Assembly: GCA_026874595.1 (NCBI GenBank) | Contig: CM049309.1 | Span: forward strand, 52,736,079-52,800,078 | DNA: 64,000 nt | Source: Sipunculus nudus | Lineage: Eukaryota; Annelida; Sipuncula; Golfingiida; Sipunculidae | Reading direction: 5' to 3' | Made by a program: the position numbers and the translations under genes | Notes under the pieces: generated by a model | What the model saw: the letters and a program-made list of their open reading frames with translations, nothing else | What the model was told of the DNA's origin: nothing | Database searches by the model: none | Shown here: positions 1 to 60,600 of the stretch, in pieces | How the letters are laid out: each line of letters begins with the position of its first letter | Numbering within the stretch: the stretch's first letter is position 1

Positions 1-869
1 TGTCAGGACAGGAAAGGCTAATCTCTCTGAAATTGGGTTTATTTGCACCACAAAGTCAGTTTTAGGATTTCTGATAAAAGTATTGACTTTTTTTCCAGCA
101 CAGTAGGTACAAGACCATTCCCTAATTACTTCAGTTTACATTTAATCAGTCTGTGAATGTCTGGGTCTGCACCTGCTGAGAATCTCATCATATGCATCTT
201 ACTTTCTGGTGAAGTGAAGTCACTGTGTAATGTTTGATTTTTATCTTGGTTCACACCAGCTCACTTGTTAATCACTGCTAGGCTCGTATATTCAAGACTT
301 CAGATATGTTTGTGTTATAAATAAGGAAATTACTCTCTTAGCTGTAATATCATTGCAGTTTGCTTTGGAACTTGGTAATAATAGTATCTACAAAAGAGTC
401 ATTTTGAGAATATGTTAAAATTAATTGAGTGATCCAGTACCCTGGTCCCTGGCATACATTTTTCATATAAAACTTTTGTGAACTTAAAGGCTTTGAAAAC
501 AAGTTATGTTCAGTCAGAAGGAATTTTTGTAGTGCATGCCAAGTGTCATCAGTGATCTTGTGTGTATTTGGATAAATGGAAGATTCACCGACCCTGTTTT
601 CTCGTAGTATTTTCAAACAAACTGTTGAAGTCAGGCATAATTTAGAGTAATTGTTGCATAATGTCAAAGTTCTTTCAATTAAAGTCTGAGGTATTAAAAT
701 AATGCCATTCTAGCATATTTTGCCTCTGTGGTAAACTAAGTTAACCCAGAGTTTCAGGAATGGACGTATAATAATCATAATTTTCCAGCTCCTGACCAAT
801 TTTGAGCACTCAAGTAAACAGCTATGAATACCTGACTTAAGGTAGAAAGTTCATGTATTTTTTCAAAAT
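1..869. other. AT-rich non-coding stretch, no gene seen
   Basis: I see no splice-bounded open frame, RNA gene or clear repeat here. The longest open frame (minus strand, 350-667) has no recognisable domain and is the length expected by chance in AT-rich DNA. Start motifs and codon patterns do not stand out. Confidence 0.6.
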
Positions 870-1022
870 TTTACGTATTTTTTCTGTATTTTTGGGACCT
901 TCAAATGTGTTGAAGTGGTCATCTGTTAACAAGGCACAAATAGTTACCATTTGACCTAGAACCTTCTTACTTGACACCCAGTGAGGTCCATGAACAATCT
1001 CCATGGAAACCTGAAATGAGGT
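870..1022 (+). repeat. Fragment of an old ~150-bp repeat
   Basis: The motif series GGCACAAATAGTTACCATT, TTTGACCTAGAACCTTCTTAC and GAGGTCCATG...GAAACCTGAAATGA recurs in degraded form at about 3505-3650 and 3690-3795. The copies therefore lie on both sides of the Helitron-like element at 1082-3359. The simplest reading is that the younger element landed inside an older array of these units. Boundaries are approximate and I do not know the family. Confidence 0.55.
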
Positions 1023-1139
1023 CTCTGTTACTTATATCCTCTGAGCTATGGGGCTTGTAAATACCTCTGAGAATAATTGTATCGCCAGACATAGTCTGGA
1101 GATACTTTGGTTTCGGCATGGTCAAGCCGCCACCGCCGC

Positions 1140-3235
1140 AGAGATTTCTTTTGGACACAATAACTCAAAAAATATTTCACGGATCTTTACCAAACTTGGT
1201 ATATGTATAGATATGGGTGAGAGGAAGACGCCTATTTAAAATGAGGTCATGACCTCAAGTAGGAGAGTGACCTTGACCTTGAATAGGTTCAATTTTGGGG
1301 AAAATCACACAAATTCTTAAATATCTCAAGAAAACTTGCATGGATTGATCCCAAAATCAAGTTGATCAAAGATCATGGATAGGGTTGTCATGTTCCAGAA
1401 ACTGGTGGCGCCACCTGTTATTCTTTACTTGTTTTCATGCCGTTTAATATCCCCAAAATTGCTACTTGACAGTACTGTGAGCATTATAAGTCAAAAACTT
1501 ATGGACAGATTTCTTTCATATTATGCAAATACATAGATATGGCTTATGGGATGATGTTTGTTTTAATTGGGGTCATGACCTTTCCTATGAGAGTGGCCTT
1601 GACCTTGAATATTGCCATATATGGTGAAAATCACACAAAATCATTAATTTCTCAATAAGGGATGCATGCATTGGTCCAAAAATCAACTTGACGGAAGATC
1701 TTGGATAGTAATGTCATGTACCGGAAACAGGTGGCACCACCTGTTTTTCTTTTACTTGTTTTCAGGCCGTTTAATACCCCATCATTGCCACTTAACAGTA
1801 CATTTATAAACTGTGAGCATTATCAGTCAAAAACTAATGGACAGATTTCTTTCATATTATGCATATACATAGACATGGGTTATGGGATGATGTATATATA
1901 AATTGGGGTCATGACCTTTCCTATTAGAGTGGCCTTGACCTTGAATATTGCCATATATAGTGAAAATTACACAAAATCATTAATATCTCAATAAGGGATG
2001 CATGCATTGGTCCAAAAATCAACATGTTCGAATATCTTAGAAAGTATTGTCATGTACCGGAAACAGGTGGCGCCACCTGTTATTCTTTTACTTGTTTTGT
2101 GCCGTTTAATACCCCATCATTGCCATTTATCAGTACTGTGAGCATTATAAGTCAAAAACTAATAGACAAATTTCTTTCATATTATGCATATACATGGATA
2201 TGGGTTATAGGATAATGTTTATTTGAATAGGGGTCATGACCTTTCCAATGAGTGGCCTTGACCTTGAATATTGCCATATATGGTGAAAATCACACAAAAT
2301 CATGAATTTCTCAATAAGGGATTTCATGCATTGATCCAAAAATCAACTTGACTGAAGATCTTGGATAGTAATGTCATGTACCGGAAACAGGTGGCGCCAC
2401 CTGTTATTCTTTTACTTGTTTTCGTGCAGTTTAATACCCCATCATTGCTACTTAACAACTTACATTTATAACCTGTGAGCATTATAAGTTAAAAACTAAT
2501 GGACAGATTTCTTTCATATTTTGCATATACATAGACATGGGTTATGGGATGATGTATATATAAATTGGGGTCATGACCTTTCCTATTAGAGTGGCCTTGA
2601 CCTTGAATATTGCCATATATAGTGAAAATTACACAAAATCATTAATATCTCAATAAGGGATGCATGCATTGGTCCAAAAATCAACATGTTCGAAGATCTT
2701 GGAAAGTATTGTCATGTACCGGAAACGGGTGGCGCCACCTGTTATTCTTTTACTTGTTTTCTGCCGTTTAATACACCATCATTGCCATTTATCAGTACTG
2801 TGAGCATTATAAGTCAAAAACTAATGGACAAATTTCTTTCATATTATGCATATACATGGATATGGGTTATAGGATAATGTTTATTTGAATAGGGGTCATG
2901 ACCTTTCCAATGAGTGGCCTTGGCCTTGAATATTGCCATATATGGTGAAAATCACACAAAATCATTAATTTCTCAATAAGGGATGCATTGATTGGTCCAA
3001 AAATCAACTTGAACAAAGATCTTGGATAGTGTTGTCATGTACGGGAAACAGGTGGTGCCACCTGTTATTCTTTTACTTGTTTTCGTGCCGTTTAATACCC
3101 CATCATTGCCACTTAACAGTATTGTGAGCATTATAAGTCAAAAACTAATGGACAGATTTCTTGCATATACATAGACATGGGTTAGGGGATGATGTATATT
3201 GAAATTTGGATCATGACCTTTCTATGTGAATGACC
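1140..3235 (+). repeat. Tandem core array, ~330-bp units in ~661-bp dimers
   Basis: The palindromic block related to AACAGGTGGCGCCACCTGTT starts at 1400, 1726, 2062, 2386, 2724 and 3047. Spacings are 326, 336, 324, 338 and 323, so every second unit is closest in length, with a dimer period of 660-662. Sequence agrees: the units around 2062 and 2724 share variants (the 63-codon frames starting at 2024 and 2686 differ at only about four residues), while those around 1726 and 2386 share an extra ACATTTATAA segment. Each unit also carries GGTCATGACC (1245, 1571, 1907, 2232, 2569, 2894; degraded near 3209) and TTGACCTTGA. The short open frames in the units are not credible genes. Confidence 0.9.
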
Positions 3236-3296
3236 TTTTCTATGAGTGTGGTCTGATATTAATTGTTGCTGAAGATGGGGGGCCTATTCTTAAAAA

Positions 3297-3309
3297 GGGG
3301 GGGGGGGGG
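3297..3309 (+). repeat. Poly-G tract (13 bp)
   Basis: A run of 13 G separates the core array from the 3' tail of the Helitron-like element. Related bivalve elements carry a simple repeat at this position. Confidence 0.9.
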
Positions 3310-3489
3310 ATTAATTGTCTGGGGATACTATGGCACCTGCGGTGCCAAGAAATATCTAGTTATAAATTTGATACAAAAGCACTAGTATCTGAATAACTAA
3401 TGCATTGATGGGCATGATACTTTCCATGCATATTGATCAATGAGTGTTTCATCAATTCCTGCAGACTGGTGGCGCCACCTTATTTTTTT

Positions 3490-3900
3490 TTAATTTTTAC
3501 ACATTTTTTCTTTATTTTTAAGAACTTCAAAACAAAGCAATCTGGCTGTTTAAAAAACACAAAAGGTAACTGTTAGACCTAGAAACTTCTTACTGTACAT
3601 CATGGGAGTTCCTAGGCAAGTCTCCTTTGAAACCTGAAATTAATTATGGTGAACTATATTTTGTGAATTACGGACCGAAAACACCTAGTGAGTCAGATGG
3701 GGCACAAATTGGTTCTATTTGGCCTAGAATCTTCTAACATGACTTTAAGGGAGGTCCATAAAAAATCTGCTTTGAAACCTGAAATGATGTCACTCGACAC
3801 TGTGACCTATTTTCTGCAACCAGTGTCGAAGAACATGATTTTATAACTCTAATATTCAGATGGGCACAAATGGTACCAGCTGGATGTAGAATATGGTCAC
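3490..3900 (+). repeat. Remnants of the ~150-bp repeat, about three units
   Basis: Degraded units recur with the landmarks GACCTAGAA (near 3576), GGCCTAGAAT (3721) and GGATGTAGAA (near 3887), plus GGCACAAAT and TTTGAAACCTGAAAT. Spacing is roughly 145-165 bp. They match the fragment at 870-1022. Just upstream, at 3468-3479, is one further GGTGGCGCCACC. The age difference from the intact core array next door is obvious by eye. Confidence 0.5.
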
Positions 3901-4611
3901 TGTAAACTTTACCTAAGATCTATTGGCAATATGCATGATATTTAGCACTTTGGGAGTCATTTTACCATTTGTTTAAGGCTCCTTGAATTCATCTCAGCGT
4001 CATTGCCTATGGGTCACTTGTTTTAAGTGACTGTACCTGTAAGTCATGAGGTGTTGTCAAAAATGAAGAAAATATTTGCATCCTCAGTCCTTGTGATTAC
4101 TGAACATGGCATTCTGACATCTCAAATGACTTTCTTATGTCAGATCCAGAGGGGAAGAATGGTGTTAGTAAACAGGTGACTCACCCTGTGAAGGAGAAGA
4201 TGGATGATTCAGGATTTATGCCTAATTAGCTGAGCAAAGGAAGCTCCAGTTAAGGACATCAACATGTGCTTAAACTGGACTATGGAAAAGAAGCTCCTTG
4301 GTTCAAAGCCGGCCTAAGAGCCACTAAGCAGCAATGGGAAAAAGGAGAATTCTAGATAGATAGTTTGTTTTAATGACAAGTTATGACTCTTGGGCTATTT
4401 CTAGTACCATGTCTGTATATCCTTAAATCCTCAAGGCTTAATAAAGCCATACCATTCTCATCATATGGTTACCTTCATATTCATTCAGTAGACTGCAGGG
4501 CCACCTACAGGCCATTAAACATGCCTTCATAAAATGATCCTGTACGATCCTGAATTGCCATTGTGGCCTCATTTGTGGATATCACATATAGAAGTTTTGA
4601 TTTCCTTTTCA
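3901..4611. other. Non-coding stretch, no gene seen
   Basis: No open frame, RNA gene or repeat stands out in these ~700 bases. Confidence 0.55.
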
Positions 4612-6233: not shown

Positions 6234-6237
6234 TTAA

Positions 6238-6745
6238 AGGGGTCCAATTACCTATAAAGCATTTGGAATTAATGCGAAAAATAGTTTCTTCCCTTTAAAA
6301 TAAATCTGTACCTGCTGAAATGTTTCCTTGAAACCGTTTGCTTACTCCTGTAAACAAGTGTTAAAAACAGTGGACTGGGTGCGAACACAAGTGTCAACAT
6401 TAACACAGCATGTGGGGCCGTGTGCATCGCAGACCCCAAACATGTGTCAATCAGGAGATGCCCTGACTGACTTGGCCCAAAAAATGTAATACATGTTCCC
6501 ACTGGCTGAAAAACTGCGTGTTGTGGCTCACAATCAGACCTCAGGTCATGCGGCCTTGTTATGATAAACAGACACACATAGAATGTGTTTACCAACATGC
6601 AGAACCATAACAAGGTGTTAAACAGGCGTATGTGAGGTACTAAGATTGTGTGCTGGGATGGTTTTACTGGGGAACTTTTGTTTAAAGCAAAACTGAACTG
6701 ACAGTGTGAAAGAATAGGCATAATATTGCGCCTGATTATGTCCAT
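6238..6745 (-). mobile_element. R element copy 1: ~508-bp non-autonomous element flanked by TTAA
   Basis: The element lies between TTAA (6234-6237) and TTAA (6746-6749). Its ends are imperfect inverted repeats: AGGGGTCCAATTACC on the left against ATGGACATAATCAGG read from the right. A second copy, in opposite orientation, lies at 29759-34193, split by later insertions. The two match along their length, for example AAACCATCCCAGCACAC, ATGTATTACATTTTTTGGG and CCACTGTTTTTAACACTTG. The TTAA target suggests a piggyBac-like origin, but the AGGG end is not typical, so the superfamily is open. A 158-codon open frame on the minus strand (6269-6745) is just this element read through; it has no transposase motif and its equivalent in copy 2 is broken. 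Confidence 0.7.
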
Positions 6746-6749
6746 TTAA

Positions 6750-11449: not shown

Positions 11450-13013
11450 GTAGAGGGAACAGTGTAGATGGTGACTGTTTATGGAGTGGGTCAGGTGGTG
11501 ACAGAGATGGGGAGCAGTGCAGATGGTAACAGTTTGGGATGCAGTGCAGATGGTAACAGTTTGGGGAGCAGTTAATCTGTAGACAGAGATTGCTGGAGCA
11601 GTGCAGGTGGTGACAGATTGCTAGAACAGTTCAGGTGGTGACAGAGATTGCTGGAGCAGTGCAGGTGTTTTCAGAGATTTGTGGAGCAGTGCAGTGTTTC
11701 AAAGATCTGTGAATCAGTGCAGGTGTTGATAGATTGGTGGAGCAGTGCAGGTGTTATCATAGAAGCAGTGTAGTTGTTGACAGATTGATGGAACAGTGCA
11801 GGTGTTCTCATAGATCGGTGGAGCAGTTCAGTTGTTGTCAGAGATTGGATGAGCAGTGCAGGTGTTGACAGAGATTGATGGAGCAGTGCAGGTGTTTCAG
11901 AGATTTTTGGAGCAGGGCAGAATTTTTCAGAGTGCAGGTGTTTTCATAGATTTGAGCAGTGCAGGTTTTCTCATAGATTGGTGAAGCAGTGTAGTTGTTG
12001 ACAGATTGATGGAACAGTGCAGGTGTTTTCAGAGATTTGTGGAGCAGTGCAGGTGTTTTCAAAGATTGGTGAAGCAGTGCAGGTGTTGACAGAGATTGAT
12101 GGAGCAGTGCAGGTGTTTCAGAGATTTTTTGAGCAGGGCAGAAGTTTTTAGAGTGCAAGTGTTTTCATTGATTGGAGCAGTGCAGGTGTTGACAGAGATT
12201 GGTGGAGCAGTGTAGGTGTTGACAGAGATTGGTGGAGCATTGCAGGTAAGAAACAAAGATTTGGGGAATACTGCAGTTGTTAACAAAGATCGAGGGAACA
12301 GTGCAGTTGTTAACAAAGATCGAGGGAACAGTGCAGGTGTTAACAAAGATTGAGGGAACAGTGCAGGTGTTAACAAAGATTGAGGGAACAGTGCAGGTGT
12401 TAACAAAGATCGAGGGAACAGTGCAGGTGTTAACAAAGATTGAGGGAACAGTACAGATGTTAACAAAGATTGAGGGAACATTGCAGGTGTTAACAAAGAT
12501 TGAGGGAACAGTGCAGTTTTTAACAAAGATCGAGGGAACAGTGCAGGTGTTAACAAAGATTGAGGGAACAGTGCAGGTGTTAACAAAGATAAGGGGAACA
12601 GTACAGATGTTAACAAAGATTGGGGGAATGTTACAGATGTTAACAATGATTGGGGGAATGGTACAGATGTTAACAATGATTTGGGGAATGGTACAGATGT
12701 TAACAAAGATTCGGGGAACAGTGCAGGTGTTAACAAAGATTCAGGGAACAGTGCAGGTATAAACAAAGATAAGGGGAAAGGTACAAATGTAAAAAAAGAT
12801 TGGGGGAATGGTGCAGGTGTAAACAAAGATAAGGGGAACAGTACAGATGTTAACAAAGATTAGGGGATTGGTACAGATGTTAACAAAGATTGGGGGAACA
12901 GTGCAGGTGTAAACAAAGGTTAGGGAAACAGTGCAGGTGTTGACATGTTTCAGGAAAAGTGCAGTTAACAGATATAGGGAGCAGTGCAGGTTGTGACAGG
13001 TAAGGGGACAGTA
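11450..13013 (+). repeat. Minisatellite, ~50 units of 30 bp, two subfamilies
   Basis: Left of about 12250 the unit reads GTTGACAGAGATTGGTGGAG + CAGTGCAGGT, with many indels. To the right it reads GTTAACAAAGATTGAGGGAA + CAGTGCAGGT and keeps exact 30-bp register for about 20 units. Beyond 12600 it shifts toward GGGGGAATGGTACAGATG variants and decays again near 12950. Because 30 is a multiple of three, long frames stay open by default: a 161-codon plus frame (12277-12762, repeating LTKIEGTVQV) and a 265-codon minus frame (12059-12856, repeating SLLTPALFPQ). Neither has a credible start, signal or flanking splice signal, and the left half is full of frame-breaking indels. I read this as non-coding. 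Confidence 0.93.
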
Positions 13014-18803: not shown

Positions 18804-19510
18804 AGCAGTAATATCTGCCCCCTTCAATGTACAACTGTCAGCCTTCTTCAGGACAGTAATATCTCCCACTAGAGTACAACTATGAGCCTTCTCCAACAGT
18901 GATATCTGCCTCCTAGAGTACAACTGTAAGCCTTCTCCAGAGCAGTAATATCTGCCTCCTCTAGAGTACAACTGTTAGCCTTCTCAAGGACAGTGATATC
19001 GGTCTCCTCTAGAGTACAACTGTGAGCCTTCTCCAGGACAGTGATATCTGTCTTCTCTAGAGTACAACTGTGATCCTCCTCCAGGGTAGTGATATCTGCT
19101 TCCTCTAGATTACAACTGTTAGCCTATCCAGGGTAGTGATATATGCTTCCTCTAGATTACAACGTATTAGTTATTATAACTAGTTGTACAATCCATGTAA
19201 AATAAATAAAGTTTATAAATATACCTGCCTTCTCTAGAGCACAACTGTTAGCCTTCTCCAGAGCAGTAATATCTGCCTCTAGAGTACAAGTGTGAGCCTT
19301 CTCCAGGAGAGTGATATCTGCCTCCTAGAGTACAACTGTAAGCCTTCTCCAGAGCAGTAATATCTGCCTCCGCTAGAGTACAACTGTTAGCCTTCTCGAG
19401 GACAGTGATACCTGCCTTCTCTGGAGTACAACTGTTAGCCTTCTCCAGGAAAGTGATATCTGCCTCCTCGAGTACAACTGTGACTATGAGTCTTCTCCAG
19501 GACAGTGATA
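18804..19510 (-). repeat. Minisatellite, ~14 units of ~48 bp, interrupted once
   Basis: Units carry AGTACAACTGTGAGCCTTCT, CCAGGACAGTGATATCTGCC and TCCTCTAG. Read on the minus strand, full-length units translate as a 16-residue repeat similar to EKANSCTLEEADITVL. Several units have lost 2-5 bases in the TCCTCTAGAG segment, which breaks the frame, so coding is unlikely. An AT-rich block at 19164-19221 splits the array into two parts with similar unit variants. Confidence 0.92.
19164..19221 (+). other. AT-rich insertion inside the 48-bp minisatellite
   Basis: About 58 bases without any array motif, containing AATAAATAAAG, lie between ...TAGATTACAAC and ACCTGCCTTCTCTAGAG. The array resumes on the other side. 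It could be a small insertion or replacement; I see no terminal repeats. Confidence 0.6.
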
Positions 19511-29754: not shown

Positions 29755-30116
29755 TTAAAGGGACATAATCAGGAGCTAAATTATGCTATTCTTCCACACT
29801 GTCAGTTCATTTTTATTTTTATGCCCCCGCCACAAAGTGGCCAGGGCATATAGTTTTACCCATGTCCGTCCTTCCGTCATTCCGTCATTCTGAAATCAAA
29901 CAGTTGTACAGACTTTTTTTCGCAATGGCTGCAGATATTGGCCTGATTTTTGGTGTGTGGGCAGATAATGTCCATCCGTCCGCATCTGTTAACTTTTACC
30001 TTGTGAGCGGGATATCTCTAAAAGGATTCACCGTTGGAAATTTATAACATCAGTGAAGATGTATATTGATAAAATTCTCAGTAAAGTTCGAAGTTGGTTG
30101 ACCTTGACCCATTTTT

Positions 30117-30145
30117 AGCTCAGCTGACTATAAGTCATCTGAGCT
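30117..30145 (+). other. Terminal hairpin of the I element
   Basis: Two 13-nt arms with a 3-nt loop and a single C/T mismatch. The arm sequence is re-used in inverse near the 3' end (32741-32749). Confidence 0.9.
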
Positions 30146-30161
30146 ATAGTCGTGGTCCATT

Positions 30162-30230
30162 GTCCGTCGTCCGTCCGTCTGTCCGTCCGTCCGTCCGTCC
30201 GTCCGTCCGTCCGTCTGTCCGTCCGTCCGT
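30162..30230 (+). repeat. (TCCG)n-type microsatellite
   Basis: A tract of TCCGTCCGTC with a few TCTG variants, about 69 bp, just inside the start of the I element. It translates as PSVRPSVR by default and is not coding. Confidence 0.95.
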
Positions 30231-30263
30231 AGATGTGGCACGTTTTGAAACCGTAAGACATAG

Positions 30264-31560
30264 GAATCCAAAATTCAGCATAATGTTAGATGTCCCAAAG
30301 ATCTCCTACCAAGCCGAAAACTGGGTCTTTGCGACTTCGTTCCTTTGAGAAATTAAGGAAAAACCTCAATTTTTTATTAAAAACCTATTTTCACACTTCA
30401 GGACTGCCTAATATCAAAACCACTCATCTGTTTTCCCTCATATTTACCATAAATATTCTTCTATATAGTTCCTATGTACATGCCAGAAATTATGTCTGTA
30501 TTATATAATTTAAAAAAGTTATGGGCCCAAACATAATGCATTTTGTGAAAAATCAGGAAAGATATTTGATCACTTAACACAAAACTTGTTAAAGCTATGG
30601 ACTTTTTTTCCAGTAATATAACTTTAATTTATCAAAATTAAATTGTATACCCAAAATTAGATCAAAATCTTTTAAATTTTTTAAAATATTAACAAAAATA
30701 AAAAATTGGTACCTTAAATTTTGCCCAACTTTGACCATGGCACGTTTTTTTCCTGTAAGTACTGTGGATTTAATTTTCTCAGCATGTTTTTGTTAGCATT
30801 TTGTCTGTTAACACCAAAAATTTGAAACCAGTTGATAAAAAACTGTAGATTTTATTCAAGTTTTCAAGCACCATGTAACAAATTGTTTACATCAAGCTAG
30901 TGTTATGCAGTTTTCAAGAGCTCAGCTCCCCAGCTTCAGCTGTCAGTTCCTAAAATTTGGCATACAATTAGATGTCTCCAAAATTCCCTACCATGCCAAG
31001 AATTTGGTCACTAGGACTTAATACCTTCGAGATATTAATGAAAAACTTCATTTTTCCATTAAAAACCTATTGTTACACTTCAAGACTGCCTAATATCAAA
31101 ACCACTGATGTGACTTTAATCATATATAATATACATATTTTTCTATACATTCTCTATGCATATGCCAGAAATGATGTCAGTATTGCGTAATTGTTTTAAG
31201 TTATGGGCCCAAACATAATGCACTATGTAAAAAATCAAGAAATATATTTACTCCCTTAACAAGGGGATTGCTGAAGCTAGAGTTTTTTTGCCAGGGATGT
31301 AACATTATTTAATCATGATTCAATTGAATACCCCAAATTAGTTCTGAATTTTTCAAATTTATATGTAATTAGTATAAATATAAAATTAGTACCTTAAATT
31401 TTGCCCAACTTTGACCATGGCACATTTGTTTCCTGTGAGCACGGTTGATATAATTTTCATATCATGCACACAAGGATTTCAGCTTTTTAGTTTAGAAAGC
31501 TGAAAGAAATTGGCCAAAAATTGTAGCTTTTATTAATGTTTTTATGAGACCATGTCAGAC
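30264..31560 (+). repeat. Two internal repeats of ~680 bp in the I element
   Basis: ATATCAAAACCACT occurs at 30411 and 31093, and TTGCCCAACTTTGACCATGG at 30721 and 31401, giving a period of 680-682. The two units are clearly diverged. Each has a 72-codon frame (from 30290 and 30972) with alignable but strongly diverged translations. Confidence 0.85.
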
Positions 31561-31699
31561 CTTAACTCTCTCCAGCCCCTCTTGAGTCACCTGTATGTTG
31601 ACCTTGTTGAACTTTCAGCAAATTATGCATGCTTGAGGCGAGCCATACACTGTTGCAGGTAGTATGGCCAGCCACAGTTGGTCTAGGTGTCCAACCCAA

Positions 31700-32740
31700 C
31701 TCATCTAGTAGTTTTAACCAACAACATAACAATTAACAATAAATAAATAAATTTTTTATTGTTTTTTAATAACAAATTAAAGAAAAATAAAAAAGAATTT
31801 GTTAGTTTATAATAACAGGAAATCAACTTGCTGTTACTGATGATAAAAGAATCTTGTATCGATGGATAGAATGTCATGTACTCCAAATAACACCATGCAG
31901 TCACCTATGGTATTTTTCAGTTCAATTTTAATGATAAAAAAGTAAATCATATTATTCATTACTTATCATTAGGGATCATATGAAGGAAATAAATGATAGA
32001 CAAAGATGCAGTTGATATTATTAATCTAGATTCCTTTTGTGTCTAGTGTGTACATTGATGTGAAATTAGTCCAAAATGAATATATTACATTTTTTTTTTT
32101 TAATATAAATAAAAGCCATAAAACCAGGTACTTTTGATCATAATTTAAATGTGTGAATTTTGTATATTCTGGATTCTCAACATAATTGTTTGGTGAAAAC
32201 TGAATAAATGCCAGTAATGGTGGGAAAACTTTGCAATTGTATTTAAATACGAATATGAATATGTACTCCATTATAAAATTTCTTGCATAAAGAATTGGAA
32301 TTCAGGTAAAAATGAAATTATATGAATACCAGTGCAAATACTTTCAAAATGTATTCATGAATGCATTCATGAATATATTCTTTAATATTATTTTAATAAT
32401 CATATCAGTTATATTTCATTTTAAAAAATCATATGATTCTCTTATTATTTTTTATAAAAATTATATTTGGGACAATATTTGTAATTTTTTTTAATAAATA
32501 GTTAAACTCTTATATTATATGTTCTGCTTATAAGTTATATGGCCAAGTCAAAATCTGTGTGACAATAGTACTCCATTTGTTAATAAAATAAATGAAATCA
32601 GTCCTCTTCCCTGTCTCCAAAGGTACTATCAAAATCATACATAAGCTAAACAACAACAACTCATAATACAGCTTATATTTATTACCACACAAAACCAGCA
32701 TGTGCCTCATTTCTAAATAATATTTTTTTATCATATATAA
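31700..32740 (+). other. Very AT-rich block, no gene seen
   Basis: This kilobase is visibly poorer in G and C than anything else in the window, with many A and T runs. It has no recognisable protein and no tandem structure, apart from a 24-bp perfect palindrome at 32352-32375. It lies between the second ~680-bp repeat and the 3' end of the I element. Confidence 0.7.
32352..32375. repeat. Perfect 24-bp palindrome
   Basis: The half-site TATTCATGAATG is followed directly by its exact reverse complement, centred on ATGCAT. Confidence 0.97.
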
Positions 32741-32782
32741 CAGCTGAGCGTCGTGACCCATAGGTCCCTTGTTCTACATTTA

Positions 32783-33470
32783 AGAGCTGATTATAGAAAA
32801 ACACTCAGTAGCTTATATCTCAGGAACCCTTGTGTGGATTTTCACAAAACTTGCTATGATAATTCGGACTGATGGTCTGTACGTGCTGCACAAATTTGGT
32901 GGCGCCACCTGCAATTTCTGATTTTTCAATCAATTTTTATCGGATTTTTCAATTTTAGCCTTTTGAGTGGGATATCTCTAAAAGGATTCACCGTTGGAAC
33001 TTTATTTCATCAGTGAAGATGTATATCAACAAAATCTTGGTCAAGTGCAAAGGTGGGTGACCTTGACCTATTTTTCTTTGTTTTAGAGCTGATTATAGAA
33101 AAACACACAGAAGCTTATATCTCAGGAACCATTGTGTGGATTTTCACAAAACTAACTATGATCATTTGGAATGACGGTCTGTGCTTGCTGCACAATTTTG
33201 GTAGCACCACCTACAATTTCTGATTTTTTAATGTATTTTAATCAGATTTTTCAATGTTGGCCTTTTGTGCAGGATATCTCCAAAGGAATTCAACACAGGA
33301 ACTTCATTTCTTCAGTGCTAATGCATGATATTTACAAAATCTTGGTCAAGTTCAAAGATGGGTGTTCTTGACCTACTTTTCAAGGTCACAGAGCTTAGAA
33401 TAGAAAAAACTTAGGAGCTTATTTCTCAGGAAGCATTTGGTGGATTGTTATGAAACATGGTACATACCTC
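32783..33470 (+). repeat. Tandem core units of the O element, ~302-bp period
   Basis: AGAGCTGATTATAGAAAAAC starts at 32783 and 33085, with a diverged third start (GAGCTTAGAATAGAAAAAAC) near 33390. Each unit carries TATCTCAGGAACC, GTGTGGATTTTCACAAAACT, then GGTGGCGCCACC (32898-32909; GGTAGCACCACC at 33200-33211), then TGACCTTGACCTA. The third unit decays after about 80 bp. Confidence 0.85.
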
Positions 33471-34197
33471 TCCAATTTAAATTTATAACTGATTATCAGC
33501 TTTTGCTAATATTCTAGTTTTGCAATGCAATGCTTACAGATACTGGCCTAATGTTTGCACATGTATGGACTTTTTTTCACTGTGCCTGCAGATACTGGCC
33601 TGATGTTTGGTGTGTTGCTTGATAATGACCCGTTACAGATTGAGTTTGTATTTTGCCCTTGTTGACCTACTTTTGACCATACGACACCTCCTGATGAACT
33701 ACAAAATTTAACAAATGTTTCTAATTTGCCCCAGGCGGGGGCATTCGTGTCATTCCATCACATCTAGTTACAAATGTTTCCCAGCAAAACCATCCCAGCA
33801 CACGGTCTCATTTCCTTGCTTACAGATGTTTTACACCATGTTATGGCTCTGCTTGTTGTTAAAGACAGTCTTTTTACCATAACAAGGCTGCTGACTGGAG
33901 GTCTGATTAAGGAAGGCGCCCCCAGATTTTCAGCCAGCAGAAGCATGTATTACATTTTTTGGGTCAAGTCAGTCGAGCATCTCCTAATTGACAGGTGTTT
34001 TGGCTCAGCGATGCTCAAGCGCTGTGTTTATGTTGACACCTGACATCGCGCCCGGTCCACTGTTTTTAACACTTGTTTACAGGAGAAAGCGAATGATTTC
34101 AGGGCAATATTTTGGCAGGTACAGATTTATTGTAAAGGGAAAGAGCTATTTTTTCGTGTTAACTCAACATGCTTTATAGGTGATTGGGCCCCTTTAA

Positions 34198-55944: not shown

Positions 55945-57205
55945 ATTGACCTGTTTGCCACATGGCAAACACTAATATACATTTTCCTTATTTGCCACAT
56001 AGAAAACTCTGGTATACAATGTCATGATTGCCACATGATGTAAGTGCCTTGTCATATGGTGTTCACTGTAAGCACTGCCTTGTTTTGCCACATGGTTTTA
56101 ACTGTATACACTGCCTTGTTTGGCTACATGGCGTTCACTGTATGCACTGCCTTGTTTAGCAACTTGTTTTTCACTGTATACACTGCCTTGTTATGCTACA
56201 TGGTTTTCACTCTATACACTGCCTTGTTTGGCAACTTGGTTTACAATGCATACACTGCCTTGTTTGGCAACTTGGTTTACACTGTATACACTGCCTTGTT
56301 ATGCTACATGGTTTTCACTGTATGCACTGCCTTGTTTGGCAACTTGTTTTTCACTGTATACACTGCCTTGTTATGCTACATGGTTTTCAATCTATACACT
56401 GCCTTGTTTGGCAACTTGGTTTACAATGCATACACTGCCTTGTTTGGCAACTTGGTTTACACTGTATACACTTCCTTGTTATGCTACATGGTTTTCACTG
56501 TATACACTGCCTTGTTTGGCACCTTGGTTAACACTGTATACACTGCCTTGTTTTGCTACATGGTTTTCACTGTATACTTTGCCTTGTTTGGCTACATGGT
56601 TTACACTGTATACACTGCATTGTTTGGCTACATGGTTTACACTGTATACACTGCATTGTTTGGCTACATGGTTTTCACTGTATACACTGCATTGTTTGGC
56701 TACATGGTTTTCACTGTATACACTGCATTGTTTGGCTACATGGTTTACACTGTATACACTGCATTGTTTGGCTACATGGTTTTCACTGTATACACTGCAT
56801 TGTTTGGCTACATGGTTTTCACTGTATGCACTGCGTTGTTTGGCTACATGGTTTTCACTGTATACACTGCCTTGTTTGGCTGCATGGTTTTCACTGTATG
56901 CACTGCCTTGTTTGGCTACATGGTTTTCACTGTATACACTGCCTTGTTTGGCTACATGGTTTTCACTGTATACACTGCCTTGTTTGGCTACATGGTTTTC
57001 ACTGTATACACTGCCTTGTTTGGCTACATGGTTTTCACTGTATACACTGCCTTGTTTGGCTACATGGTTTTCACTGTATACACTGCATTGTTTGGCTACA
57101 CGGTTTTGAATGTAAACACTGCCTTGTTTGGCTACATGGTTTTCACTATGTAAACTGCCTTGTTTGGCTACATGGGTTTTCACGGTATACACTGCTGTGC
57201 CACAT
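55945..57205 (+). repeat. Minisatellite, ~33 units of 36 bp, with a 180-bp higher-order repeat
   Basis: The unit is TTCACTGTATACACTGCCTT + GTTTGGCTACATGGTT. From 56044 to 57150 no unit changes length, so all three plus frames and one minus frame stay open; the longest is 369 codons (56044-57153, repeating YTALFGYMVFTV). Five distinct units form a 180-bp block repeated once (56164-56343 and 56344-56523). Outer units decay, with TGCCACATGG-type remnants from about 55945. Open frames here follow from the 36-bp length, and I see no promoter, signal peptide or splice context, so a protein is unlikely. Uniform units at the right-hand side point to recent local expansion. Confidence 0.93.
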
Positions 57206-59399: not shown

Positions 59400-60600
59400 G
59401 GAGTAACCTGCCAACCCTGTCACAAGGACAAGGTGTCAGGAGCTGGACACCTCTTCTGCGACAGGGACGAAAGTGTTGCTGGGCATCTCAGGACTGTGCG
59501 ACAGGGACAACCTGTCTTGTTGTTTGACAGCTCCTGTGTGACAGGAACAACTTGTCTGTTGTTTGACAGCTCCTGTGTGGCAGGGACATCCTGTCTGTTG
59601 TTGAGTAATTCTTCTGCGACAGGGACAAACTGTTTTTGTTTAGCAGTTCTTGTGTGACAGGGACAACCTGTTATTTGACTGCTCCTGTGTGACAGGGACA
59701 TCCTGTCTGTTGCTGAGTAGTTCTTCCGTGACAGGGACAACCTGTCTGTTGTTTTATAGCTCCTCAGTGACATGGAAAACCTGTCTGTTGCTGAGTTGTT
59801 CTTCCTTGACAGAGACCTGTCTGTTGTTTGACAGCTCCTGTGTGACAGGGACAACCTGTCTGTTGTTTGACAGCTCCTCTATGACAGGGACAACCTGTCT
59901 GTTGTTTGACAGCTCCTGTGTGACAGGGACAACTAGTCTTGTTGTTTGACAGCTCCTGTGTTAGGGACAACCTGTGATTTGACAGCTTCTGTTTGACAGG
60001 GCCAACTGTCTGTTGCTGAGTAGTTCTTCTGTGACAGAGACAACCTGTCTGTTGTTTGACAGCTCCTGTGTGACAGGGACAACCTGTCTGTTGTTTGACA
60101 GCTTCTCTGTGACATGGATAACCTGTCTTGTTATTTGACAGCTCCATTGTGACATGGACAACCTGTCTGTTGAGTCGTTCCAGTGACAGGGACAACCTGT
60201 CTGTTGCTGAGTATCTCCTCTGTGACACTGACAGGGACAACCTGTCTGTTGCTGAGTATCTCCTCTGTGACACTGACAGGGACAACCTGTCTGTTGCTGA
60301 GTAGTTCCTCTGTGACAGGGACAACCTGTCTGTTGCTGAGTGGTTTCTCTGTGACAGAGACAACCTGTCTGTCGCTGGGTAGCTCCTCTGTGACACGGAC
60401 AACCAGTTGTTTGACAGCTCCACTGTGACAGGGACAACCTGTTTGTTGTTTGACAGCTCTTCTGTGACAGGGACAACTTGTCTGTTACTGAGTAGCTCTT
60501 CTCTGACAGGGACAGCCTGTTATTTGACAGTTCCTCTGTGACAGGGACAACCTGTCTGTTGCTGGGTAGCTCATGACTCTTTTAACAGGGATAATTTGTC
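59400..60600 (+). repeat. Minisatellite, ~30 units of 39 bp with hairpin-forming motifs
   Basis: The unit is GACAGGGACAACCTGTCTGT followed by TGTTTGACAGCTCCTGTGT or TGCTGAGTAGTTCCTCTGT; the two types are interspersed. Each unit contains GACAGG-GACAA-CCTGTC (6-bp stem), and many also contain CCTGT-GTG-ACAGG across the unit junction. Two successive units near 60196-60290 carry a 6-bp insertion, giving a 45-bp period. Frames repeat CVTGTTCLLFDSS on the plus strand and SQRNYSATDRLSL on the minus strand. They break at indels (for example near 59650 and 59950), so coding is unlikely. Confidence 0.93.

Follow-up and report, generated by a model that had tools for sequence, protein, structure and literature searches.

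A legible three-level nest of transposable elements of known kinds in Sipunculus nudus

Self-BLAST and alignments across the joins placed three repeat elements one inside another within the window, the 64-kb stretch of Sipunculus nudus DNA analyzed here (Table 1). At 29755-34197, element I lies inside element O, which itself lies inside the second copy of element R, and the whole R[O[I]] composite is bounded by TTAA. This layout is real and legible, and both the parts and their nesting are of kinds already known. We consider it very probable that R, a TTAA-inserted, noncoding MITE of the Kolobok/T2 kind, was split by the HINE O, whose tandem array was split by a different HINE, I. Within that reading, the anatomy of O and I points to HINEs, i.e., non-autonomous Helentrons, which are rolling-circle elements, whereas R is assigned to its type less securely. 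The three nesting levels proposed in the initial annotation were borne out by the junction alignments of R copy 2 and of the O unit, and its coordinates for R copy 2 proved exact, with TTAA found at both ends.

Table 1. Features of the nest and of the unbroken R paralogue, in window coordinates
Feature	Position	Strand	Detail
R copy 1, unbroken paralogue	6234..6749	-	opposite orientation; TTAA at either end
R copy 2, left part	29755..29820	+	starts at TTAA 29755-29758; tip AGGGACATAATCA
R copy 2, right part	33769..34197	+	ends at TTAA 34194-34197; tip (reverse complement) AGGGGCCCAATCA
O, HINE-like	29821..33768	+	1291 bp without I; edges uncertain by 1-2 bp
O ends			5' ATGCCCCC, 3' CTAGT
O 5' subterminal inverted repeat	29821..29831	+	ATGCCCCCGCC; perfect 11-bp match to 3' repeat
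O internal inverted repeat	29839..29849	+	hairpin with 5' repeat, -19.0 kcal/mol (RNA parameters)
O partial tandem unit	29981-30116	+	left of I
O tandem units	32783..33389	+	two, ~302 bp; 251/305 columns alike
O 3' subterminal inverted repeat	33734..33744	+	GGCGGGGGCAT; 24 bp from end
O 3' end	33764..33768	+	CTAGT, then T
I, HINE-like	30117..32773	+	2657 bp, in O's array; edges +/-1-2 bp
I ends			5' AGCTCAG, 3' CTTGT
I 5' subterminal inverted repeat	30118..30126	+	GCTCAGCTG
I 5' hairpin partner	30139-30145	+	CTGAGCT; -17.5 kcal/mol
I microsatellite	30162..30230	+	GTCC x 17.5
I tandem array	30270..31555	+	two copies, 682-bp spacing
I 3' subterminal inverted repeat	32741..32749	+	CAGCTGAGC; 24 bp from end
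I 3' hairpin and end	32755..32773	+	GACC/GGTC stem; CTTGTT end

The two parts of R copy 2 matched R copy 1 on either side of a 2-bp gap (29755-29819 with 6749-6684, 86%, E 7e-15; 33770-34197 with 6681-6234, 78%, E 5e-96). The initial annotation had required the halves to fall on adjacent positions of copy 1, and they do abut there: joined and compared from TTAA to TTAA, R copy 2 (495 bp) and R copy 1 (516 bp) were identical at 408 of 519 columns, with 27 gap columns, and the alignment had no visible likeness in the flanks outside the TTAAs. Its second alignment gave the same kind of result: once I is removed, the rebuilt O repeat unit agrees with its neighbor over 132 of 154 columns. Both proposed "empty sites" are hence present and readable as paralogues; neither is the same locus before insertion. 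We regard a misassembly as scarcely credible: each join coincides with the ends of an element and gives back an unbroken unit, which would be unexpected of chance breaks.

Breakpoints were located by scoring alternative joins. For O (41 x 40 breakpoint pairs, with R copy 1 as reference), the four top joins (scores 153, 149, 149, and 149) all excise exactly 3948 bp, with zero net gain; the best of them is 29822-33769, while 29821-33768, which ties for second, was chosen for listing because the subterminal repeat begins there. The insertion lies in T-rich DNA (left flank TTTTTATTTTT), the exact site being A|A or T|T depending on the join, and A|A rather than T|T in the best-scoring one. Joins leaving two extra bases scored 147 at most against 153, which disfavors the TA duplication at O that had been entertained earlier, although R copy 1, as a diverged paralogue, is too imperfect a reference for strict exclusion. 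Among the 44 x 50 breakpoint pairs scored for I, three joins share the top score of 217, each excising 2657 bp with zero net gain within ATTTTTC, and the next scored 215; the 1-2 bp uncertainty in its edges stems from the T run. The previous statement that neither O nor I has a clear target duplication thus stood, the best joins at both sites being without net gain or loss.

O and I share a layout: a subterminal repeat at the 5' end that folds into a hairpin (7-nt spacer in O), a tandem array, and that subterminal repeat recurring in inverted form 24 bp from the 3' end. Both end in CT[AT]GT and both sit in T-rich DNA without target duplication. The initial annotation had missed this common HINE/Helentron architecture. 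If both are HINEs or Helentrons, this would account for the absent target duplications; published HINE anatomy, as far as it is set out in the available portions of PMC4067079 and PMC7492417, includes T-rich target sites and a lack of target duplication. HINEs are expected to carry subterminal inverted repeats of about 11-15 bp at their 5' and 3' ends, and the perfect match is 11 bp in O and 9 bp in I. When pairs of random windows were drawn (pairs less than 200 bp apart left out), the O repeat score was reached in 3 of 2000 draws, and in 5 of 2000 shuffles; for I, perfect over 9 bp only, the corresponding figures were 47 of 2000 and 15 of 2000. The two copies in the I array (30270-30876 and 30952-31555) are alike at 457 of 609 columns.

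Across the 64-kb window on both strands, a scan for 9-bp subterminal repeats under a hairpin energy limit, written after the ends had been seen, returned O and I only. Among 100 shuffles the mean was 0.2 hits, with one hit in 20 and two hits in none. The same scan did not recover a HINE-like element at about 1080-3360. An earlier, stricter version, which accepted only internal repeats exact over 7 bp, missed the O and I pairs and was swamped by satellites, giving 54 clusters (60 shuffles: mean 9.4, maximum 18); two of its hits paired the right end of I with other starts.

Compared by layout rather than by subterminal sequence, O and I resemble the bivalve HINE/Pearl element Cg_HINE in the accessible text of PMC7492417. 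Its subterminal inverted repeat is 11-12 bp (11 in O, 9 in I), and both elements have, within a few bp of it on the downstream side, an internal repeat complementary to it, as well as the central tandem array and the T-rich site with target duplication absent. The 4-nt microsatellite is clear in I only; a short TCCG-like tract is visible by eye in the left module of O, where Tandem Repeats Finder lists none. The 3' repeat is followed by a palindrome that is weak here, a 3-bp stem only in O and the 4-bp GACC/GGTC stem plus one further pair in I. End layout and target behavior are also those of DINE-1/HINE-Mo in the portion of PMC4067079 consulted, where paralogous empty sites are employed likewise. 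The mite HINEs described there differ in having the 3' repeat 38-60 bp from the end (24 bp in O and I) and a longer palindrome of 5-10 bp. Satellite-like monomers in oyster are mostly 160-180 bp in the excerpted PMC8268682, against units of ~302 bp (O) and 682 bp (I).

Inverted repeats near both ends of O and of I would also suit ordinary cut-and-paste MITEs with imperfect ends and lost target duplications, and bivalve Pearl elements were themselves first described as MITEs before being recategorized as non-autonomous Helentrons (PMC7492417, in part). In both elements, however, the inverted repeat reaches the very edge on the left only, with a 24-bp tail on the right, and the best joins at either site involve no net gain or loss; we judge the MITE alternative for O and I very unlikely. 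Canonical Helitrons begin with TC at the 5' end and terminate in CTRR. They were rejected as a candidate: the 5' ends are ATGCC (O) and AGCTC (I), and CTAG of O fits CTRR but CTTG of I does not. As HINEs, and going by published families, the elements would have their 5' end nicked by a Rep/helicase from another element; copying would then extend as far as the subterminal repeat and hairpin at the 3' end, and the single strand would be joined into a T-rich site with no duplication made. From the published families we infer rolling-circle movement with trans helpers for O and I, and cut-and-paste for R.

The assignment of R draws on its ends. TTAA is present at all four ends of copies 1 and 2, and an AGGRR tip at three of the four. 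Kolobok/T2 tip features were taken from the available parts of PMC9587614 and PMC6004289; relative to the T2-MITE/Kolobok superfamily as portrayed there, R is alike in its TTAAs and AGGRR tips and differs in that its inverted repeats are badly kept and no transposase was seen. The terminal inverted repeats pair at 10 of 13 positions in R copy 2 and 7 of 13 in R copy 1, and as local matches they are no better than shuffles, which equaled or exceeded them in 638 of 2000 and 1954 of 2000 cases, respectively. Other TTAA-inserting kinds, piggyBac and a solo KolobokP terminal repeat among them, are fairly unlikely for R. piggyBac, too, uses TTAA (PMC9587614, in part). The piggyBac tip begins CC, whereas the R tips begin AG at three ends and AT at the remaining one, which speaks against a piggyBac MITE. 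Terminal repeats of KolobokP, judged from published descriptions rather than by sequence comparison, are ~450 or 660 bp, against 487-508 bp between the TTAAs in the two R copies; solo copies occur in every family analyzed by that work, as far as its available text goes, and KolobokP is rich in bivalves. In the same text, the duplications around solo KolobokP repeats mostly measure 3-4 or 4-5 bp, according to family, which speaks against KolobokP. A Kolobok/T2-type MITE is the preferred reading of R.

The longest stop-to-stop frame overlapping the nest is 92 aa, and 39 frames are at least 40 aa; nine of these 39, together with a 158-aa frame of R copy 1, gave no Pfam match at cut-off (one match at E 0.2 scored 12 bits, where 27 are required). 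Ten further open frames elsewhere in the window produced two sub-threshold matches, to PRIMA1 (17.9 bits; cut-off 38.6) and to Tryp_alpha_amyl (18.4 bits; cut-off 21.7). Window-wide, no RNA family reached its gathering score and no tRNA was detected. One conserved piece each of R, the I array, and the O array had no exact match in viral contigs, nor did a 17-base piece from the left end of O; the latter had eight matches in prokaryote contigs, which are taken as chance because about 30 are expected for a 17-base word in 257 billion bases, both strands, at equal base frequencies. The stretch 31540-32780, which includes the AT-rich part of I, held 23 inverted-repeat pairs, mostly AT-rich, none of them convincing as a further nested element.

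From the nest the initial annotation had also derived a relative order of activity, with R first, O next, and I last. For the families that order does not follow, because O could have moved with I, or R with O or with both, as a unit; one locus gives containment, not times of family activity. Interruption analysis of nested transposons (PMC2517846, seen in extract) likewise infers relative age from which element interrupts which but counts many interruptions, whereas here there is one locus and no family order. We think it somewhat unlikely that O arrived in R already carrying I, or that R moved carrying both; the nest would then still be real, but its insertions would not have taken place here in the sequence inferred. 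R[O[I]] keeps TTAA at both ends, and nothing within the window discriminates such composite movement from stepwise insertion. A rolling-circle element copies anything between its ends. Against composite movement stand the additional mobile intermediates it requires and the single copy each of O and I in the window by self-BLAST and end searches. It is compatible with the favored account of what the parts are. Helitron/Helentron parts within other elements were already known in oyster, where Helitron parts are reported inserted in other elements (PMC12628747, in the portion available). We hold it improbable that HINEs favor one another's T-rich tandem arrays as landing sites and that the composite copies on as one rolling-circle unit; if true, one HINE would spread another's repeats.

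The elements are of known kinds and well preserved, and the nest settles no open question, as one locus cannot date families. It places two probable rolling-circle insertions side by side, each legible almost base by base against a paralogous empty site and each in agreement with published T-rich, duplication-free insertion, and so offers a clean example and a starting point for annotating these families in the host. A second nest near 1-4022 was considered as a counter-example to O before I and rejected, because its elements have different subterminal repeats and can be placed in neither the O nor the I family; no outer left end was found for this nest, and the alignment at its empty site is poor. 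Less clearly, a second repeat family encloses the HINE-like element at about 1080-3360. All three HINE-like elements with both ends found in the window are inside other repeats.

The interrupted copy of R (a TTAA-flanked repeat), together with O and I, most likely represents two non-autonomous Helentrons (HINEs), one within the other, inside a Kolobok/T2-like MITE. All parts of this nest are of known kinds; the initial annotation was correct in its observation, and the locus is explicable to a greater degree than it supposed. R occurred twice in the window, in opposite orientations, with copy 2 interrupted. As had been proposed, the halves of copy 2 abutted on copy 1, with 2 bp between their self-BLAST matches, and when joined (495 bp, TTAA to TTAA) were identical to copy 1 in 408 of 519 columns, with 27 gap columns. 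With copy 1 as reference, 41 x 40 pairs of edges were tried at O; the top four joins each removed 3948 bp (O with I inside), placing the edge with a precision of 1-2 bp only. Joins leaving two extra bases scored at most 147, against 153 for the best, and a TA duplication, previously left open, is therefore not favored, while the reported lack of a clear target duplication at O stood.

Features of the nest and of other repeats in the window
Feature	Position	Details
R copy 1	6234-6749, minus	516 bp
R copy 2, left half	29755-29819	86% to 6749-6684 of copy 1 (self-BLAST of window)
R copy 2, right half	33770-34197	78% to 6681-6234 of copy 1 (self-BLAST of window)
O, best-scoring join	29822-33769	flanks A/A, as in copy 1
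O, listed edges	29821-33768	flanks T/T; score 149, tied second
I	30117-32773	
O tandem units	32783-33084, 33085-33389	251/305 columns identical
Third O unit	33300-33450	
69-bp O segment	29905-29973, 33562-33630	81% alike; flanks array on both sides, outside 302-bp units
5' subterminal repeat, O	5' edge	ATGCCCCCGCC
5' subterminal repeat, I	5' edge	GCTCAGCTG
GTCC microsatellite	within I	17.5 copies
Two-copy array	within I	spacing 682 bp; 457/609 columns alike
AT-rich 1-kb stretch	31720-32740	between I's array and I's right end
Second HINE-like element	~1080-3360	336-bp unit array, 6.1 copies
Presumed outer repeat flanks	858-1066, 3484-3686	67%
Presumed outer repeat flanks	933-1026, 3701-3794	79%
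Repeat family apparently split by second element	858-1066, 3364-4022	
Open frame in R copy 1	6269-6745, minus	158 aa
Long tandem array	56056-57195	36-bp unit
Long tandem array	12174-12945	30-bp unit
Long tandem array	59500-60561	39-bp unit
Long tandem array	18805-19481	48-bp unit

Edges of I within O were tried in 44 x 50 combinations, and three joins tied for best at 217, each removing 2657 bp inside ATTTTTC (next, 215). A paralogous form of the site before I was visible in the neighboring O unit, as claimed, with 132 of 154 columns identical to the unit restored by removing I; the third O unit aligned more poorly. Without I, O measured 1291 bp.

TTAA was found at all four R ends and AGGRR at three of the four tips (AGGGA, AGGGG, and AGGGG; the fourth was ATGGA), a combination described as the T2-MITE/Kolobok signature (PMC6004289; PMC9587614), and R is probably of this kind. 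Its inverted repeats were decayed, matching at 10 of 13 anchored positions in copy 2 and 7 of 13 in copy 1 (counted by eye from the tips), and as free local matches did not exceed shuffles (638/2000 and 1954/2000, respectively). R might instead be a solo terminal repeat of KolobokP, a related kind with long terminal repeats, which we consider unlikely.

O and I shared a common end layout. Their 5' repeats paired with a complementary repeat just downstream (-19.0 kcal/mol in O, -17.5 in I; RNA parameters), an inverted copy lay 24 bp upstream of the 3' edge, and the terminal motif was CTAGT in O and CTTGT in I. The score of the inverted match in O was reached by 5/2000 shuffles and 3/2000 random window-pair draws; the repeat of I is weak evidence by itself, because 15/2000 shuffles and 47/2000 draws reached its score. 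A scan of both strands for repeat, hairpin, and end motif returned two matches in the window, O and I, whereas 100 shuffles gave a mean of 0.2 hits (20 with one, none with two); built once both ends were known, it gauges rarity and is no independent prediction. An earlier version requiring an exact internal repeat did not recover the O and I pairs in the window. Stretches directly past the left hairpins were weakly alike (score reached by 25/2000 shuffles).

Published accounts of HINEs describe subterminal repeats, a complementary internal repeat, a microsatellite, central tandem repeats, and a 3' palindrome, with insertion at T-rich sites without target modification (PMC4067079; PMC7492417). 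The anatomy of O and I is that of HINEs, and both resemble elements of bivalves. Four features fit more poorly: the 3' palindromes have short stems, of 3 bp in O and of 4 bp with one additional pair in I; the perfect subterminal repeat of I spans 9 bp; a microsatellite is not clear in O (none in the tandem-repeat listing of the window); and the 3' repeats lie nearer to the end than in mite HINEs. Canonical Helitrons carry a 5' TC, which is missing in both O and I. The AT-rich stretch in I, without identifiable origin, is possibly captured host DNA.

I lies inside O and O inside R, from which activity in the order R, O, I had been deduced. Nesting does not show arrival here in that order, nor family activity in that order; one nested locus is insufficient, and composite transport could also be read from it. 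Since a rolling-circle element copies everything between its ends, O may have carried I in, and an R loaded with both would retain TTAA at both ends had it moved whole; such transport is possible. Relative dating from nested insertions is an established approach based on many events (PMC2517846). In oyster, Helitron parts have been found inside other elements (PMC12628747), so this type of nesting has precedent.

Another nest, more weakly defined, may occupy ~1-4022. Of 12 positions in the 5' TATCGCCAGACA of its HINE-like element, 11 agreed with the right end (score reached by 8/2000 shuffles and 22/2000 draws), and a GGCACC/GGTGCC 3' hairpin (7-bp stem) preceded a CTAGTT end; the layout scan of the window did not recover it. 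Parts of its units were 65-68% alike to O units over 127-153 columns. From its flanks, the element appears to sit inside another repeat, whose end at 4022 (CTTGTT) resembled the right end of I (score reached by 0/2000 shuffles) and folded poorly (-3.1 kcal/mol); its left end was not found. Against a clean second nest, 3364-3498, just beyond the element's right end, resembled its units (61-64%), and the empty site aligned poorly.

Over the R-O-I nest, the longest stop-to-stop frame was 92 aa, among 39 frames of at least 40 aa. A Pfam scan of nine nest frames and the open frame of R copy 1 gave none at cut-off and one stray match (E 0.2); the R frame, without a Pfam match, is probably due to chance. 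Some of the long tandem arrays elsewhere in the window were likewise open in several reading frames.
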